This document shows positions 1,535 through 9,975 of a stretch of 34,182 nt of DNA, piece by piece. The stretch covers positions 43,830 to 78,011 of the forward strand of contig CP070722.1 of assembly GCA_020350785.1 (NCBI GenBank). The letters are read 5' to 3'. The notes under the pieces are model-generated. The model saw nothing but the letters and a program-made list of their open reading frames with translations. It was not told the DNA's origin and did not search any database. A program made the position numbers and the translations under genes. Each line of letters begins with the position of its first letter. The first letter of the stretch is position 1. The DNA is from Gemmatimonadota bacterium (GTDB lineage: Bacteria > Gemmatimonadota > Gemmatimonadetes > Palauibacterales > KS3-K002).

Positions 1535-2479
1535 ATGATCGCCAACGAAGCTGAACTCCACCGTAAGCGCCATCCCATTCAGGTCGTCGCGCGCCGCACC
1601 GGGCTGACCGCTGATGTTCTGCGTGCCTGGGAGAAGCGCTATGGAGTCGTCGAGCCGGGCCGCTCGGAGGGCGGTCGGCGCCTCTATTCGGACGATGACA
1701 TCAAGCGCCTGAGGCTGCTTCGCCGGGCCAGCGAAAGCGGGCGTCGCATCAGCCAGGTCGCATCACTGACCACGGAAAAGCTGTCCGCCCTGGTCGAAGA
1801 AGATGATCGCGAGCAGGTGGCGGCAACCGTCGACTCGACCGCGGTGGCGGCCGAGGCGGCGGCGCCTCACCTCCAAGCGAGTCTGGACGCGGTGGATCGC
1901 TTGGACGCCAAGGGGCTGGAGGCGGCGCTCAATCGCGCGCTGCTGACCCTCAGTTCAGCGACGATGATCGACGGTGTGGCAGCTCCGCTGATGCGCCAGG
2001 TGGGTGAGCTTTGGAAGAACGGCAAGTTGCGACCGGCGCACGAGCACTTGGCCTCTGCCGTGGTGATTCGGATACTGGGCAAGCTGCTGGAGGCCGCCCA
2101 GCCGGCGGGTGCCGCGCCGGTTCTCGTGGTGGCCACGCCGGCCCGCCAGGCTCACGAATTCGGTGCGCTCTTCGCCGCGGCGACCGCCGCTTCGGAAGGG
2201 TGGCGGGTCACCTACTTGGGAGCCGACCTTCCGGCTGTCGACATCGCGGCGGCGGCCCTACAGAGCGAGGCCGCCGCGGTAGCCGTAAGCGTCGTGCCTC
2301 CGCTCGACGAGCGAGTGACTGACGAATTGAGAATCCTCAGGCGCGAACTCCCGGCCGTCACTCCAATCATCGTTGGTGGCTCGGCCTCCAATGCCCTTAA
2401 ACCGGTGTTGGAGGAGATCGATGCGATCCAGGTAGCGACGTTGGACGAGCTGCGCGCGAAGCTTGCCGAGCTCGCGTGA
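1535..2479 (+). CDS. carH: CarH-type MerR transcriptional regulator with B12-binding domain (probable light sensor)
   Basis: This is a 314-residue protein. A MerR winged-helix DNA-binding domain occupies about residues 14-80 (IQVVARRTGLTADVLRAWEK, then GGRRLYSDDDIKRL). A helical cap follows at about 115-185 and a Rossmann-type cobalamin domain at about 195-310. W160, E170 and H171 reproduce the W-x9-E-H motif of the Thermus CarH cap, where these residues enclose adenosylcobalamin. H207 in QAHEFGAL is at the position of the lower axial ligand. The usual D/E two residues before that His is Gln here. In characterised CarH proteins, dark AdoCbl-loaded tetramers repress DNA, and light breaks the Co-C bond and releases it. 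Conservation of all three cap residues supports photosensing over a B12-independent CarA-like role. It is convergent with rudS (6-bp gap) and heads an island of photodamage genes. Confidence 0.85.
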   Translation: MIANEAELHRKRHPIQVVARRTGLTADVLRAWEKRYGVVEPGRSEGGRRLYSDDDIKRLRLLRRASESGRRISQVASLTTEKLSALVEEDDREQVAATVDSTAVAAEAAAPHLQASLDAVDRLDAKGLEAALNRALLTLSSATMIDGVAAPLMRQVGELWKNGKLRPAHEHLASAVVIRILGKLLEAAQPAGAAPVLVVATPARQAHEFGALFAAATAASEGWRVTYLGADLPAVDIAAAALQSEAAAVAVSVVPPLDERVTDELRILRRELPAVTPIIVGGSASNALKPVLEEIDAIQVATLDELRAKLAELA

Positions 2480-2485
2480 AGGCGG

Positions 2486-3454
2486 TCAGACCTCCCTGCC
2501 TTTCCCTGAATCGCTGACGCTGCTCAACACCTCTGGGTAGGGATCGAAGAACGTCTGCGTAAGCAGGTACTCCTGGGCAAACCTCACTACCCAGGCCCGC
2601 AGTATCGACGTCAACGCGCTCACCGGGATGCGCCCGTTACGGTATTTTTCCAGCCAGGACTGGAAGAATGCCTTCTCACTCCGGCTCAACTGTTTAGAGA
2701 AGTACCCGGACACGTGCTGCAAAACGTTGATCACTGACGTCGACCGCGGCGCGCTCGCCAGCGCGGCCCTTAGGTTCCGCTCGTATTCCTCGACTACCCG
2801 TTGTAAGGGGGCTCGATCGCTATTGGCAACGATACGACCCAGGACCCTGAGCTGCTGCTGGTGATAGGCCATCAGCAGGAACTTGTGATCCGAGTGAAAG
2901 CCAATCAGGTCCCTCATCGTTGCACTTGCTTTCAGGATCCGGAAGCGAGCCAAGCAGAATAGCTTCGTGAGGAAGTGCTCGCGAATCCTGAAATTGCGTA
3001 GCCGACCTTCGTCCTCGATTGCCAGTCCTTGATACAGATCCAGGACACGGCCGCCGAAAAAGCCCGGCCCCCGTTTCGTCATCGCCGAGGGATCCCGGCC
3101 CTGATACAGCTTGACGTCACTAATGCCGCACGACGGCGAGCGGTTCTTCAAGATGAAGCCATCCACCTCCGACAAGCCGGCGAGGTAGCCGTCGGCGAAC
3201 TCTCGCATCTCCGCCGTCACATCACGATCCGTTTCCGGCTGCCAAAGACGCGCCTGCCCGTCTACCTCTACGATGCGGATCGGAGCACGCGGCACCCCGA
3301 GGCCGATCTCGAGCTCCGGGCAAACCGGCACGAATGTGACCCAGGGCTCGAGCTCACGTACGAAATCGTAAGGGATGACCTGCCCGTTATAGCGCACCGG
3401 CTCCAGCTCCAGACAGCGACTCAACACCACCACGGGTTTCGGCCATTCGCTCAT
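2486..3454 (-). CDS. rudS: RudS-like tRNA 4-thiouridine desulfidase (DUF523/TudS fused to DUF1722)
   Basis: This is a 322-residue two-domain protein. Residues 1 to about 150 form a DUF523/TudS domain with three conserved cysteines, C14 (SRCL), C45 (VCPELEIGLG) and C109 (SPSCG), expected to hold a [4Fe-4S] cluster that takes sulfur from thiouracil. Residues about 165-315 form DUF1722 (HFLTKLFCLARFR, FHSDHKFLLMAY, then the HVSGYFSKQLS segment). TudS-DUF1722 fusions named RudS have been reported to erase s4U from tRNA and reduce UVA-induced growth delay, with DUF1722 binding tRNA. That role fits a neighbourhood with photolyase and a CarH-type sensor. The ATG at 3454 has AGGAGAAGG seven bases upstream. 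It is divergent from the SDR gene, and their shared region carries the 11-bp repeat element. Confidence 0.88.
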   Translation of the reverse strand: MSEWPKPVVVLSRCLELEPVRYNGQVIPYDFVRELEPWVTFVPVCPELEIGLGVPRAPIRIVEVDGQARLWQPETDRDVTAEMREFADGYLAGLSEVDGFILKNRSPSCGISDVKLYQGRDPSAMTKRGPGFFGGRVLDLYQGLAIEDEGRLRNFRIREHFLTKLFCLARFRILKASATMRDLIGFHSDHKFLLMAYHQQQLRVLGRIVANSDRAPLQRVVEEYERNLRAALASAPRSTSVINVLQHVSGYFSKQLSRSEKAFFQSWLEKYRNGRIPVSALTSILRAWVVRFAQEYLLTQTFFDPYPEVLSSVSDSGKGREV

Positions 3455-3573: not shown

Positions 3574-3590
3574 TGTCTATATTCTGTCCA
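3574..3590 (-). promoter_or_regulatory. Two TnnACA elements 11 bp apart, candidate CarH operator of rudS
   Basis: On the minus strand TGGACA (3590-3585) and TAGACA (3579-3574) start exactly 11 bp apart. They cover the proposed -10 and transcription start of rudS. Thermus CarH is reported to contact 11-bp pseudo-direct repeats of form nnTnnACAnn, and the spacing here matches. The match is seen; binding is inferred. Confidence 0.5.
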
Positions 3591-3618
3591 TATATCGGGG
3601 TTGACAGTCGGATGTCGA
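3589..3618 (-). promoter_or_regulatory. Promoter-like sequence for rudS
   Basis: The minus strand reads TCGACA (3618-3613), an 18-bp spacer, then TATATG (3594-3589). Predicted start is near 3582, leaving a leader of about 125 nt before the rudS ATG. The stretch ATATATGGACAGA (3595-3583) closely resembles ATATAACGGACAGA upstream of the photolyase operon. Confidence 0.4.
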
Positions 3619-3629
3619 ACCCCTGATAT
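3601..3629 (+). promoter_or_regulatory. Promoter-like sequence for the SDR-DUF2867 gene
   Basis: A consensus -35 TTGACA (3601-3606) is followed by a 17-bp spacer and GATATT (3624-3629, four of six matches to TATAAT). It overlaps the minus-strand rudS promoter, so one bound regulator could control both divergent genes. Confidence 0.45.
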
Positions 3630-3719
3630 TCTGGACAATCGATCGACAGAGGGAGCCCAGGACTCGACGTCATGCCTGGGCTCGCCGAAACCCTCGCGTC
3701 CGGAAGAGAGATTGGGTGA

Positions 3720-5213
3720 ATGAGCCAGCACGCTATGCTCACGGTAACCGGGACGGACCCGAAGCCGCTCACGCTGCTGACGGGAGCATCGGGCTATGTG
3801 GGCGGTCGGCTGCTCCACGCATTGGAGCGCCGGGGGGAGAGAGTTCGCTGTCTGGCTCGTCGGCCCGAGTTCATGCAGGCCAAGCTCGGCCCGCGGACTG
3901 AAGTTGTGCGGGGCGACGTACTGGACTACGAGACCCTGCGCCCGGCCATGGCCGGCGTGCAAACGGCGTACTACATGATTCACTCGATGGGCTCGGAGGG
4001 TGATTTCGAGAAGCAGGACCGTAGGGCGGCGGAAAACTTCGCGCGGGCTGCCCGCGAGGCGGGTGTGCGACGGATCATCTACCTGGGAGGGCTCGGTCGC
4101 GAGCCCGGGCTTTCGCGCCACCTGCGGAGCCGGCAGGAGGTCGGTCGCGTACTACGGGACTCGGGGTTAACGACCATCGAGTTTCGAGCTTCGATCGTCA
4201 TCGGTTCGGGCAGTCTTTCCTTCGAGATGATTCGGGCTCTGGTCGAGAAGCTGCCCGTGATGGTGACACCGCGCTGGGTGAGCAGCCGCGCCCAGCCCCT
4301 GGCCATCGAGGACCTCATCGACTACCTGGTAGCGGCTTTGGATGTGGATGTCGAAGGGAGCGCGATCTACGAAATCGGTGGGGCGGACTGTGTGTCTTAC
4401 CTGGAGATCATGAAAGAGTATGCGCGCATCCGGGGCTTGCGACGCGTCATGATACAGGTACCAATCTTGACCCCGCGGCTGTCGAGCCTCTGGCTTGGAC
4501 TGGTGACGCCGGTCTACGCGCGTGTCGGGCGCGAGCTCATAGAGAGCGTTCGGAACGCGACGGTGGCAGATGACCGGGCGGCGCTGGACCGGTTCGGGAT
4601 CCAGCCGCGCGGTAATCGAGCGGCGATCGAACGGGCTCTCGTCAACGAGGATCGCGAGTTCGCCGAGACGCGCTGGTCCGATGCTCTTTCCTCCGGTTCG
4701 ACGCAATCGTGGGGCGCCAAGTTCGGCTCGCGCATTGTGGATAACCGAACGATCGAGGTTAGGTACTCACCCAGCCAAGCGTTCCGGCCGATTCGACGGA
4801 TAGGTGGAGCCGTGGGCTGGTACTATGCCGACTGGTTGTGGCGCCTGCGGGGCTTCCTCGACCTGCTGGTGGGAGGCGTGGGCGTGCGTCGCGGCCGCCG
4901 GGACCCCGAGCACCTGGCGCCGGGTGAGACTTTGGATTTCTGGCGAGTCGAGAGCTACGAGCCTGATCGACTGCTGAGGCTTTACGCCGAGATGAAGCTG
5001 CCGGGCCGTGCCTGGCTGCAGTTCGAAGTGGAGCCCCACGAGGACGGATCGAGGATCTACCAGACCGCCATCTTCGACCCCGTTGGGGTCTTCGGCCTTG
5101 TCTACTGGTACGCCTTGTATCCGCTCCATCAATTCGTGTTTCGAGGGATGCTTCGCGGAATGGTGGCGGCGATTGAGGATGACGGGCGGCCGCTTGCGAG
5201 CACGACGCCCTAG
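3720..5213 (+). CDS. SDR-family NAD(P)-binding protein with C-terminal DUF2867
   Basis: This is a 497-residue protein. Residues about 17-300 form an atypical short-chain dehydrogenase/NmrA-like Rossmann domain with the dinucleotide motif TGASGYVGG and the segments VRGDVLDYETL and RIIYLGGLG. Residues about 330-485 match DUF2867 (GWYYADWLWRLRGFLD, DFWRVESYEPDRLLRLYAEM, then IYQTAIFDPVGVFGLVYWY). This architecture is often encoded near photolyases and CarH/LitR regulators, but its substrate is unknown. The active-site pattern is not the classical YxxxK. The ATG at 3720 has GGAAGAG 13-19 bases upstream. The gene is divergent from rudS and converges on the glycosylase gene, with both stop codons sharing the palindrome CTAG at 5210-5213. 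Confidence 0.85.
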   Translation: MSQHAMLTVTGTDPKPLTLLTGASGYVGGRLLHALERRGERVRCLARRPEFMQAKLGPRTEVVRGDVLDYETLRPAMAGVQTAYYMIHSMGSEGDFEKQDRRAAENFARAAREAGVRRIIYLGGLGREPGLSRHLRSRQEVGRVLRDSGLTTIEFRASIVIGSGSLSFEMIRALVEKLPVMVTPRWVSSRAQPLAIEDLIDYLVAALDVDVEGSAIYEIGGADCVSYLEIMKEYARIRGLRRVMIQVPILTPRLSSLWLGLVTPVYARVGRELIESVRNATVADDRAALDRFGIQPRGNRAAIERALVNEDREFAETRWSDALSSGSTQSWGAKFGSRIVDNRTIEVRYSPSQAFRPIRRIGGAVGWYYADWLWRLRGFLDLLVGGVGVRRGRRDPEHLAPGETLDFWRVESYEPDRLLRLYAEMKLPGRAWLQFEVEPHEDGSRIYQTAIFDPVGVFGLVYWYALYPLHQFVFRGMLRGMVAAIEDDGRPLASTTP

Positions 5214-6034
5214 TCTCGAACCATCGCGGTCTCTTTCGGAATCTCTTGGCAATTCGCGCAGAAGAACGAGGTCCGCTTCAGTTTTCCCTGGCGGATCATC
5301 GCGATAGGGGCGTTGCAGCGGAAGCAGAGCCGCCCGCTGCGCTGGTAAACCCAGTATCGCTCTCCCCCGCGTCGCAGGTTGCCGTTCAGCGTCACTACCG
5401 GCCCGGCCCGACGCGCGTTTTGCAGCATGAGTGGGATGAGAATGTCCCACAATCTCCCGACCTTGGACGGCGGAACGAGCCGCGTGGGTGTGCGTGGGTC
5501 GATGGCGGCGAGAAAAAGACCTTCCGACTTGAATATGTTGCCGATGCCGGCAACGATCTGCTGATCGAGTATGGCGTCCCCGATCGGGCGCTCGAGATGC
5601 TCTTGCAGGCGCCGCCAGGTCTCTTCGCGATCGAAAGACACATGCAGTAGGTCCGGCCCCAGCGCTCGCAGCTTCTCGTGCGATTCGAGTTCCTGGGCCG
5701 TGAGCAGCTCGACGACAGGGCCGTTGAAGAAGACCGCCTCGCGCTTTCGTGTGCGCAGGCGCAGCCTCACGTTCTTCTCGGGCTTGCGCAGCGCCATCTC
5801 CGGCGGCCCGAACTGCCACGAACCGTACATCATGGCGTGGCAGTGGATCGTGATATCGTTGGACAGATGCAAGAGAAGGTGCTTGCCGTGGGTGCCGATA
5901 CGGCACAACTCCGCGCCTGGCAGCATCGCGGCTCGCGTCGCCCAGCGCTGCGGGGCATCGACAGCTACCAGAGGCTCGCCGATCAGGGACCGTAAGGCGG
6001 TTGCCCAACGGAGGACGGAATGACCTTCCGCCAC
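5210..6034 (-). CDS. Fpg/Nei-family DNA glycosylase with Ala in place of catalytic Pro2
   Basis: This is a 274-residue protein of the formamidopyrimidine/endonuclease VIII family, which removes oxidised bases and nicks the abasic site. It begins M-A-E-G-H where the family normally has M-P-E-G. The E3 acid is kept, as are K in GTHGKHLLLHL, the helix-two-turn-helix (DQQIVAGIGNIFKSEGLF) and the C-terminal C-x2-C ... C-x2-C zinc finger (LCFRCN, FFCANCQ, with R before TSFFC). The start is a GTG at 6034 with GAGG about 10 bases upstream; no in-frame start restores a proline. Human NEIL3 works with an N-terminal valine, so activity is not excluded. It is the third gene of the photolyase operon, 20 bp after the TIGR01777 gene. 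Confidence 0.88.
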   Translation of the reverse strand: MAEGHSVLRWATALRSLIGEPLVAVDAPQRWATRAAMLPGAELCRIGTHGKHLLLHLSNDITIHCHAMMYGSWQFGPPEMALRKPEKNVRLRLRTRKREAVFFNGPVVELLTAQELESHEKLRALGPDLLHVSFDREETWRRLQEHLERPIGDAILDQQIVAGIGNIFKSEGLFLAAIDPRTPTRLVPPSKVGRLWDILIPLMLQNARRAGPVVTLNGNLRRGGERYWVYQRSGRLCFRCNAPIAMIRQGKLKRTSFFCANCQEIPKETAMVRD

Positions 6035-6054: not shown

Positions 6055-7428
6055 TCAGCGGCCCAGCTCGAAGCGCAGAGCGCCCTCGAGCTGGGGATGG
6101 TTGAAACGGAAACCGGAGTCGGCCAGGCGGTCCCCCGCTACGCGGGCACCGTCGAGAAACAACGCCTGGCCCAGCTCGCCGAAGAGGGCCTTCAAGACTG
6201 GCGCTGGAGCCGGTAAGATCGTGGGCCGACGAATAACCCTACCCAGCGCTTTCGTGAACACCCGATTCGTCACCGGATTGGGCGCAACCGCGTTGATTGG
6301 GCCGGCGAGGTCGTCGCGCCTCAGTAGGTGAAGGATAGAGCCGAGTAGGTCATCCAACGCGATCCAGCTCATGTACTGCCGGCCGCTGCCCAACGCACCA
6401 CCCAGCCCCAGCTGGAAAGGTAAGAGAATACGGTCCAGTAGACCGCCGCTAGCGGTGAGGACCAGACCGATACGCAGGTTGGCCACGCGGATCCCCGCCG
6501 CGCTGGCAGGCTGGGTCGCGGCCTCCCAGGCCTGGCAGAGCTCCGCCAGGAAGCCGGCTCCGGGCGGACTCGCCTCGGACACGCTGTGGTCGCCGCGATT
6601 GCCGTAGAAGCCAATCGCGGATGCCGCGATCAGCGTTCTGGGCGGATCCGACAGCTTTGCCAGAGATTCACAGAGCAGGCGCGTGCTGGCCTCCCGGCTG
6701 TCCCAGATCTCGCGCTTGACCTTACCCGTCCAGCGCGGGGCGACGAGGCTGCGCCCGGAAAGGTGCACGACCGCGTCGGCGCCGTCCAGGGCCGCCGAGT
6801 CGATCGCGCCGGTCGCCGGATCCCACCGCGCTTCCGACGCGCCGGGATGAGGTGGCCGGCGCACCAGCCGTATGACCTCGTGGCCGCCCGTGGTGAGAAA
6901 CGCCGTCAGGTTGCGCCCGATCAGCCCCGAGGCACCGCTGAGGACAATGCGCAGGGGTGCCCGACCGGGGTACTCACGGTGGCGCGCGATGTCGTCGGCG
7001 GTGCGACGATGGCGGAAGAGGAAGCCGCGATCCAGGTCCCGGGCCACGAGGCTGCCCGCGAGCCGTCGGCCCAGCGCGCCCAGCGGCAGCCGGTAAGCGA
7101 TCTCGTCTTCCAGGAACGAGCGCTCAGCGTCGGCTGGGATGACGCGATGCGTATGATGCCAGCTCTTGAACGGCCCCTTGACCTGCTCATCAACGAACTG
7201 GCGTCCTTCCTGATAGTCGCGATGGACCGCCACCCAGCGCAGGCGAAGCGGCCCCTTACGCATTTGGATGACGGTGCGAGCCCCGTTCTCGATACCTCCG
7301 CTTCGCTCCACGACCCTGACGTGCTCCCATGGCGGGACGAGCCTCTCCAGAGCACCGGGTCGAGTATGCCAAGCGAAGAGCTCGGCTGCCGGGGCCTTGA
7401 TGAGGGTTCGGCGCTCGTATATCGGCAC
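6055..7428 (-). CDS. SRPBCC domain fused to TIGR01777-family SDR epimerase-like protein
   Basis: This is a 457-residue fusion. Residues 1 to about 150 are a START-like SRPBCC ligand-binding domain (FAWHTRPGALERLVPPWE, FVDEQVKGPFKSWHHTH, LEDEIAYRLPLG). Residues about 160-457 are a TIGR01777 (YfcH/SDR39U1) atypical SDR, with GASGLIGRNL as the nucleotide-binding turn, AASAIGFYGNRGD, and the MSWIALDDLLGSI segment. The molecular function of the family is not established; members recur beside photolyases and light-responsive MerR regulators. It starts with ATG at 7428, three bases after the photolyase stop, so the two are very probably co-transcribed and translationally coupled. Plus-strand frames over this gene are shadows. 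Confidence 0.9.
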   Translation of the reverse strand: MPIYERRTLIKAPAAELFAWHTRPGALERLVPPWEHVRVVERSGGIENGARTVIQMRKGPLRLRWVAVHRDYQEGRQFVDEQVKGPFKSWHHTHRVIPADAERSFLEDEIAYRLPLGALGRRLAGSLVARDLDRGFLFRHRRTADDIARHREYPGRAPLRIVLSGASGLIGRNLTAFLTTGGHEVIRLVRRPPHPGASEARWDPATGAIDSAALDGADAVVHLSGRSLVAPRWTGKVKREIWDSREASTRLLCESLAKLSDPPRTLIAASAIGFYGNRGDHSVSEASPPGAGFLAELCQAWEAATQPASAAGIRVANLRIGLVLTASGGLLDRILLPFQLGLGGALGSGRQYMSWIALDDLLGSILHLLRRDDLAGPINAVAPNPVTNRVFTKALGRVIRRPTILPAPAPVLKALFGELGQALFLDGARVAGDRLADSGFRFNHPQLEGALRFELGR

Positions 7429-7431
7429 GGC

Positions 7432-8910
<1,479 letters not shown>

Positions 8911-9228
8911 CGTCGTCTCCTCGGGGTCAGTACGTGCTCTTTCCGTTGGGCCCCACCGCCAGCACGAGGTCGAGTGCCAAGTGCAACGCTGGCCCGTCGG
9001 GCAACCATGATGTTGGCCGCTCGGCGTCTCCACCACCAGGGCTGGCCCATGCGCCGGCCACCTTCCAGGACCTGCTGGAGCGGCCGCAGCCGCTCGATGT
9101 CCGCAGGCCCGGTTTGGCCTCGCCACGAGCCGGGTCGGCCGATGTTTTGTATGATATCTATCACTTAGCTTTTCACTGCTCCTTCTTGTTCAAGCCCTTC
9201 CTCCGCCAAGGAGTCCCCAGCATAGGTG
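8911..9228 (-). other. Long predicted 5' leader of the photolyase operon, no confident gene
   Basis: If the promoter at 9236-9275 is used, about 320 nt are transcribed before the photolyase ATG. The leader contains an ATG at 9223 opening a 16-residue frame (begins MLGTPWRRKG) that ends next to AAGGAG. It also contains a GTG-initiated frame at 9164 (begins MIDIIQNIG) that runs into the photolyase gene out of frame. Neither resembles a family I know. It may hold a leader peptide, a decayed small gene or a regulatory RNA structure. Confidence 0.35.
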
Positions 9229-9235
9229 TCTGTCC

Positions 9236-9275
9236 GTTATATGTCAAGTTATATAGATTGACAAAAACTTGACAA
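9236..9275 (-). promoter_or_regulatory. Two overlapping promoter-like sequences for the photolyase operon
   Basis: On the minus strand, TTGTCA (9264-9259), 17 bp and TATAAC (9241-9236) form one promoter. TTGTCA (9275-9270), 16 bp and TATAAC (9253-9248) form another, shifted by 11-12 bp. Both are good sigma-70-like matches. The region is AT-rich against a GC-rich background. Overlap with the TnnACA repeats suggests regulation. Confidence 0.55.
9258..9274 (+). promoter_or_regulatory. Two TTGACA (TnnACA) elements 11 bp apart, candidate CarH operator between photolyase and fasciclin genes
   Basis: TTGACA at 9258-9263 and 9269-9274 start exactly 11 bp apart on the plus strand. An inverted TTGACA lies at 9247-9242 on the minus strand and a partial CGGACA 11 bp beyond it (9236-9231). 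This arrangement fits the 11-bp nnTnnACAnn repeats described for CarH and sits on promoters of both directions. Repeats are seen; binding is inferred. Confidence 0.5.
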
Positions 9276-9297
9276 TCACAGAAAGGTCTCCTAGATT
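9269..9297 (+). promoter_or_regulatory. Promoter-like sequence for the fasciclin-domain gene
   Basis: Consensus -35 TTGACA (9269-9274), a 17-bp spacer and TAGATT (9292-9297). The -35 is also the second repeat of the candidate operator. Predicted leader is about 180 nt; it contains a short tandem run of GCTCGGC units near 9315-9332 and no other gene. Confidence 0.5.
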
Positions 9298-9480
9298 ATC
9301 CACCGTCTGGAGCGGCGCTCGGCGCTCGGCGCTGTGGCGGCGTGAAGCCCGGGCCTCGATTTGGCCCGCGCTGCTGCGGACCGTCTCCTGTGGGCGTTGC
9401 GATGAAGGGGTGAGATCGGGCGGGAATGAGGGGAAGTGGTGGTAGCTGTGAGGAAACTCAGACACTCGAGGGAGGAAGAC

Positions 9481-9975
9481 ATGCGTAAGCGAGTATTCGG
9501 CAGTCTCATTGCGTTGGCGTTGCTCATTAGTGCGGGCAACCCCGCCGTCGCGCAGGAGACGGACATTGTGGACACGGCGATCGGCGCCGGTTCGTTCGAG
9601 ACCTTAGTGGCGGCGGTGCAGGCTGCTGATCTGGTCGAGACGCTGAAGGGCGAGGGCCCGTTCACGGTGTTCGCACCCACCGACGATGCGTTCGCCAAGC
9701 TTCCGGCCGGCACGGTAGATGAGCTGTTGAAGCCGGAGAACAAGAGCAAGCTGCAGGCAATTTTGGCGTATCATGTCGTGTCGGGGAAGTACATGGCAGG
9801 CGATGTCGTCGGCATGTCTGACGCCAAGACCGTTCAGGGCGGCAAGGTCATGTTCAAGGTGAAGGATGGCACGGCGTACATCAACGATGCGAAGATCGTG
9901 AAGACCGACATTGCCACGAGCAATGGTGTGATCCACGTCATCGACAAGGTGATTCTGCCGGAAGGTAAGCACTAG
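9481..9975 (+). CDS. Secreted fasciclin (FAS1) domain protein
   Basis: This is a 164-residue protein with an N-terminal signal peptide ([19 protein letters not shown], likely cleaved after AVA at about residue 23) and one complete FAS1 domain. Recognisable elements are [19 protein letters not shown], the first FAS1 box [27 protein letters not shown] and the second box [14 protein letters not shown]. Single-domain bacterial FAS1 proteins are secreted and thought to act in adhesion or small-molecule binding; no enzyme activity is implied. I chose ATG 9481 over an in-frame ATG at 9436 because GGAGGAAG lies 4-11 bases upstream and the signal peptide starts there. It is divergent from the photolyase operon and may share its regulation. 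Confidence 0.92.

Follow-up and report, generated by a model that had tools for sequence, protein, structure and literature searches.

The window, a 34,182-nucleotide stretch of the genome of a Gemmatimonadota bacterium, encodes a CarH-type regulator, a RudS protein and a class II photolyase followed by two further genes on the same strand. A gene for a secreted fasciclin-domain protein points away from the photolyase gene. These genes and one decayed gene are as follows.

1535–2479, plus strand: CarH-type MerR-B12 regulator (CarH1); profile and structure matches
2486–3454, minus strand: RudS, 2-thiouracil desulfidase plus DUF1722; tRNA s4U desulfidase family, profile match
3720–5213, plus strand: SDR-DUF2867 oxidoreductase; profile match
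5210–6034, minus strand: Nei/Fpg-like DNA glycosylase; profile match; ends the photolyase gene run
6055–7428, minus strand: TIGR01777/YfcH-like oxidoreductase; profile match; downstream of photolyase
7432–8910, minus strand: class II CPD photolyase; TIGR00591 (E 1e-107), PDB 8oet/2xry (E 1e-75); ATG at 8910
8930–9162, minus strand: decayed remnant of carH2; four collinear fragments in shifting frames, in the photolyase leader
9481–9975, plus strand: secreted fasciclin-domain protein; PF02469 (E 9e-42); GGGAGG ribosome site before ATG 9481

The RudS family has been described previously (PMC11417400). The best bit score of the carH2 remnant is 33.9, compared with a maximum of 26.6 in shuffles. 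Intact carH2 genes lie between the putative operator described below and the photolyase gene in the related records L079 (11156–12061), L083 (3280–4191) and L085 (3421–4326). The three encoded proteins form a supported clade (100/99) in which Wx9ER replaces Wx9EH, and it is uncertain whether these paralogues act as B12 photoreceptors. A longer photolyase open reading frame that begins at GTG 9126 runs through the remnant. Because 8930–9162 holds decayed carH2 sequence, we place the photolyase start at ATG 8910; gene callers may miscall it at GTG 9126.

Sequence features of CarH1

CarH1 is encoded about 7 kb from the repeats between the photolyase and fasciclin genes, by the only gene found in the genome with both MerR and B12-binding_2 domains. 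Its closest solved structures are those of CarH (3whp and 5c8d; E about 1e-29), and its MerR domain matches PF13411 with an E value of 1.8e-15. The recognition helix carries the RxWERRY-like sequence RAWEKRY (residues 30–36), with K in place of one R, and the helical B12 subdomain contains the Wx9EH motif (W160...E170 H171). Set against D/ExHx2G...SxT/V...GG, the B12-binding motif reads QxHxxG, with Gln for Asp/Glu and the ligand His207 present; SVV and GG are also found. CarH1 scores below the NCBIfam CarH equivalog cut-off (112.7 bits versus 400). The position of TtCarH His132, the upper ligand in the light state, is occupied by Lys in CarH1; His is common here, not universal, and was found in 34 of 83 relatives. 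Accounts of the TtCarH H132A variant conflict: in one it mostly stays assembled in light, whereas an earlier one had it dissociating (PMC10442372). Since CarH1 has Lys at this position, its mode of light release may differ.

Paired 11-bp repeats between the photolyase and fasciclin genes

CarH operators consist of tandem 11-bp repeats, nnnnTnnACAn, that overlap the -35 or -10 element and are bound in the dark by CarH loaded with adenosylcobalamin (AdoCbl) (PMC9304148). The intergenic region between the photolyase and fasciclin genes contains two TKGACA half-site pairs, one on each strand, facing outward, with half-sites 11 bp apart. These candidate operators and the promoter-like elements that they overlap are listed below.

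9219–9247, minus strand: probable photolyase-operon promoter; -35 TTGACA at 9247–9242 (repeat 1), 17-bp spacer containing repeat 2, -10 TATGCT at 9224–9219
9231–9247, minus strand: candidate operator pair 1; direct repeats TTGACA (9247–9242) and CGGACA (9236–9231), 11 bp apart, toward photolyase; same element upstream of carH2-phr in L083 and L079
9258–9274, plus strand: candidate operator pair 2; direct repeats TTGACA (9258–9263) and TTGACA (9269–9274), 11 bp apart, toward fasciclin
9269–9297, plus strand: probable fasciclin promoter; -35 TTGACA (repeat 2), 17 bp, -10 TAGATT

The initial annotation had noted the plus-strand TTGACA repeat and the inverted TTGACA, and both stand where it placed them. 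The pairs fit the nnnnTnnACAn direct repeat, with CGGACA departing from it at the T. When positions 9165–9480 were shuffled with dinucleotide composition preserved (n = 3000), two TKGACA-N5-TKGACA pairs (at most one mismatch), as in the real sequence, appeared in 0/3000 shuffles and one pair appeared in 7. This result, together with conservation in relatives, shows that the repeats are not a product of chance; the initial annotation had judged their helical phasing hard to explain in that way. The whole window contains four such pairs (shuffles: mean 0.15, maximum 2), confined to the photolyase–fasciclin and rudS–SDR-DUF2867 intergenic regions. Genome-wide repeat counts come from pattern searches, which across all 4.09 Mb gave a single exact TTGACA-N5-TTGACA, the plus-strand pair TTGACAAAAACTTGACA. 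Matches to one site alone, at 1860657 and at 3459361, the latter near-palindromic, have no paired layout and were set aside.

The second intergenic region and the region preceding carH contain the following elements.

1468–1523, strand not assigned: degenerate candidate operator and carH promoter; minus-strand GCGACA-N5-TGGACA at 1484–1468, 9 bp before TTGACT-18-CATAGT
3574–3590, minus strand: candidate operator pair on the rudS side, TGGACA-N5-TAGACA; conserved in L079 and L080
3601–3630, plus strand: predicted SDR-DUF2867 promoter, TTGACA-18-GATATT
3632–3648, plus strand: candidate operator pair on the SDR-DUF2867 side, TGGACA-N5-TCGACA, directly 3' of the -10; same place in L079 and L080

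A motif of the photolyase–fasciclin region, ATATAACGGACAGA (9242–9229), had been likened to ATATATGGACAGA (3595–3583) on the rudS side. The likeness is genuine: at both places GGACAGA forms the half-site of a direct repeat with 11-bp spacing. The degenerate element before carH (1468–1499) is putatively autoregulatory; in relatives the corresponding element, equally far from the -35, is intact.

Overlap of the repeats with promoter-like elements

Both candidate operators overlap the -35 of a target promoter predicted by sequence. On the minus strand repeat 1 serves as the -35, and counterparts upstream of carH2-photolyase read TTGACA-17-TATCCT in L083 and TTGACA-17-TATCTT in L079. On the plus strand repeat 2 serves as the -35. 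The resulting TTGACA-17-TAGATT (-35 from 9269, -10 at 9292–9297), already proposed as a promoter from the initial reading, has the counterpart TTGACA-17-TAGCTT in L083. The same reading had assigned minus-strand promoters to two TTGTCA/TATAAC pairs. Both pairs exist (9275–9270 and 9253–9248, 16 bp apart; 9264–9259 and 9241–9236, 17 bp apart), but they are not conserved in L079 and L083, where TTGACA-17-TATNYT stands instead, and we rejected them as the photolyase promoter. That promoter is better read as TTGACA-17-TATGCT. The TTGTCA/TATAAC pairs are partly by-products of the half-site, which reads TTGACAA/TTGTCAA on either strand.

Both spacer arrangements recur elsewhere. Across 80 repeat pairs, a -10-like TANNNT lies exactly 17 bp from repeat 1 in 12 and from repeat 2 in 13, compared with 0–4 at other offsets. 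These peaks correspond to offset 23, as on the photolyase side, and offset 34, as on the fasciclin side. A repressor bound to repeats so placed would be expected to obstruct polymerase.

Strand arrangement and helical phasing of neighbouring pairs

Close neighbouring pairs on opposite strands are divergent without exception, with the left pair on the minus and the right pair on the plus strand (30/30). Their offsets cluster at 16, 25–27, 36–38, 56–58 and 67–70 bp (class centres 16, 27, 37, 57 and 69). A period of 10.5 bp fits best (R 0.90), a value reached by 0/20,000 random sets, including when duplicate offsets were collapsed, and the five class centres alone give p 0.005; these p-values serve as guides because related loci are not independent. 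Helical phasing had been claimed from the photolyase–fasciclin region by itself, and we consider it real because neighbouring pairs are always divergent with offsets that follow a 10.5-bp period. Neighbouring pairs on the same strand have offsets of 31–32, 41–43 and 83–84 bp. In this genome the divergent double pair occurs in five regions: photolyase–fasciclin, rudS/SDR, L014 (a second fasciclin gene), L105 (5297–5340; a DUF4397 lipoprotein/cupin region) and L015.

Conservation of the repeat pair and its linkage to carH

Relatives of the same family and order were compared, the related records being Gemmatimonadota. In these relatives TKGACA-N5-TKGACA lies upstream of carH, rudS, SDR-DUF2867, (carH2-)phr and fasciclin. 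Spacing 11 accounts for 34 pairs over 29 of these upstream regions (8360 bp in total), compared with 0.075 in shuffles; other spacings from 6 to 33 mostly gave 0–4 pairs, with secondary peaks at 28 (13 pairs) and 31 (8 pairs).

A second set comprised 68 additional carH loci spanning several phyla; their selection relied solely on the CarH protein and took no account of the motif. It contains 81 pairs at spacing 11, compared with 2–26 at the other spacings between 6 and 33 and 3 in a reversed-pattern control. Sufficient upstream sequence was available for 65 carH genes, and 39 of these have a motif pair within 300 bp upstream. A fasciclin gene is divergently adjacent to carH in 23 of the 65, and the motif is present in 22 of those 23. 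Over the 300 bp preceding carH the motif reaches 3.18/kb, compared with 0.018/kb elsewhere. The initial description of a repeat-rich divergent control region tied to a CarH-like protein and to rudS agrees with these comparative data. The motif, its conservation, spacing and phasing, its overlap with promoter-like elements and its linkage to carH are direct observations.

Strict co-occurrence of motif and carH was rejected, enrichment per genome being about twofold across 60 genomes. Twenty genomes with carH gave about 27 matches, and 40 in which no clear carH was present gave about 24 (control, about 6 and 4, respectively), so the motif also occurs outside carH genomes. Arrays of three tandem 11-bp repeats occur in genus g7 (L196:3055–3082 and L197:1707–1734), where no clear carH was found.

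Discussion

Positions 9219–9297 most likely constitute the divergent promoter-operator region of a regulon controlled by a CarH-type B12-photoreceptor repressor, with repression in the dark and relief in light. The paired 11-bp repeats would very probably act as a light-operated switch for a set of sun-protection genes, because phased repeats accompany these genes in many bacteria that are only distantly related. We infer that CarH is the binding protein and that the switch follows this dark/light logic. In the proposed mechanism, two opposite-strand repeat pairs would cover the -35 and spacer of the photolyase operon on the minus strand and the -35 of fasciclin on the plus strand. In the dark, adenosyl-B12-loaded CarH encoded at 1535–2479 would bind the repeats along a single helix face, keeping RNA polymerase off both promoters. 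Light would cleave the cofactor and cause CarH to release the DNA, allowing expression of the photolyase/YfcH/Nei operon and of fasciclin. Through the matching region at 3574–3648, rudS and SDR-DUF2867 would be expressed in concert.

The operators of Thermus thermophilus, Bacillus megaterium and myxobacteria share with this region the 11-bp direct TnnACA repeats over -35/-10 and a CarH gene within the regulon. Operators of this kind are already known, as is divergent CarH control, since a single CarH operator governs divergent promoters in Sorangium cellulosum (PMC9304148). The known operators form one tandem array of three to five repeats, with three or four in TtCarH and BmCarH operators (PMC9304148), whereas 9231–9274 carries two per strand. 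In myxobacteria, binding still occurs at operators where just one or two repeats are good and the others imperfect (PMC9304148). What differs here is the layout, in which pairs on opposite strands (or a second pair on the same strand) are phased at multiples of 10.5 bp, and the target set: known CarH targets are carotenoid genes, whereas those here are photolyase, RudS and fasciclin. The evidence is evenly balanced on whether this amounts to a distinct operator code of opposite-strand 11-bp pairs, always divergent and 16 + n × 10.5 bp apart, on which two CarH oligomers or one bridging tetramer on one helix face would shut both promoters. This reading would also make fasciclin a CarH target found widely across Gemmatimonadota, Acidobacteriota, Verrucomicrobiota and Pseudomonadota.

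The strongest competing explanation, which we regard as unlikely, accepts that CarH binds the repeats and holds that the switch is not the classical B12 light switch: CarH might sense oxygen, redox state or B12, or its light-sensing partner CarH2 might have been lost. The Lys in place of His132 in CarH1, the Wx9ER of the relatives' CarH2 and the decay of carH2 in this genome are consistent with such a change. However, CarH1 keeps Wx9EH and the lower-ligand His, and the targets include two light-stress genes, photolyase and RudS, that sit in light-responsive operons of other bacteria (PMC11417400), which favors a classical light switch.

It is less probable still, and in our view doubtful, that the repeats are operators of another MerR-type or unrelated regulator encoded beside carH, with CarH using other sites. 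Some genomes in which no clear carH is present do carry the motif: in L201, for example, it lies beside rudS/SDR, and in L196 it forms a three-repeat array. On the other hand, it is very strongly enriched directly upstream of carH in several phyla and matches experimentally defined CarH operators (PMC9304148), and the one other strong MerR_1 match in the genome (C1:3728352) has no B12-binding_2 match. A related precedent is the class II LitR of Pseudomonas (PplR/PmlR), a light-responsive repressor of the MerR/CarH family that controls photolyase and RudS-type genes (PMC9758184, PMC11417400). Class II LitR differs in having no full B12 domain, a LOV partner and the site TGTACA-N12-TGTACA, for which the window contains 0 matches with up to 2 mismatches allowed.

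Promoters of the RpoE-ChrR type have the consensus TGATC-N17-20-TAAG, and the window contains zero matches to it. Control by such an ECF sigma factor and its anti-sigma factor, responsive to singlet oxygen, is thus highly improbable here, although the RpoE regulon of R. sphaeroides includes similar genes, namely phrA, fasciclin RSP_1409, SDR and folE2 (PMC7074977). The promoters in the photolyase–fasciclin region instead look sigma-70-like. Chance origin of the repeats in an intergenic island that is AT-rich relative to the genome is refuted by their cross-genus conservation and by the shuffles, and its probability is negligible.

CarH-type control would thereby extend from carotenoid genes to DNA-repair, tRNA-repair and fasciclin genes in largely uncultured phyla, and fasciclin, whose role in bacteria is unknown, would gain a specific candidate regulator. 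Elsewhere, fasciclin genes are induced by light or singlet oxygen under other regulators (PMC7074977, PMC9861118). In Mycobacterium kansasii, the fasciclin-domain genes mpk83 and mpk70 are upregulated in light alongside photolyase (PMC9861118); a text search of that paper found no mention of CarH or LitR. A full-text literature search, with subscription papers outside its scope, found no paper linking CarH to bacterial fasciclin or to Gemmatimonadota. The spacing of the repeat pairs provides a rule amenable to direct test, using purified CarH on synthetic DNA.

Repeat pairs also lie beside other genes. Orthologues of the DUF4397 lipoprotein gene with a repeat pair are present in three other genomes (L186, L194 and L199), four in all, which suggests that this gene is a further member of the putative regulon. 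At L015:4989–5030 a repeat pair precedes a gene that by eye resembles RND-type efflux membrane-fusion proteins, and a pair at L188:2997–3024, in a different genus, lies upstream of a similar gene. Perfect repeat pairs also stand near genes that we named by eye rather than by profile search: one is folE-like, one encodes an amine-oxidase-like FAD protein and others encode CIA30-like proteins (L191:3000–3016; L190:3019–3035; L189/L198).
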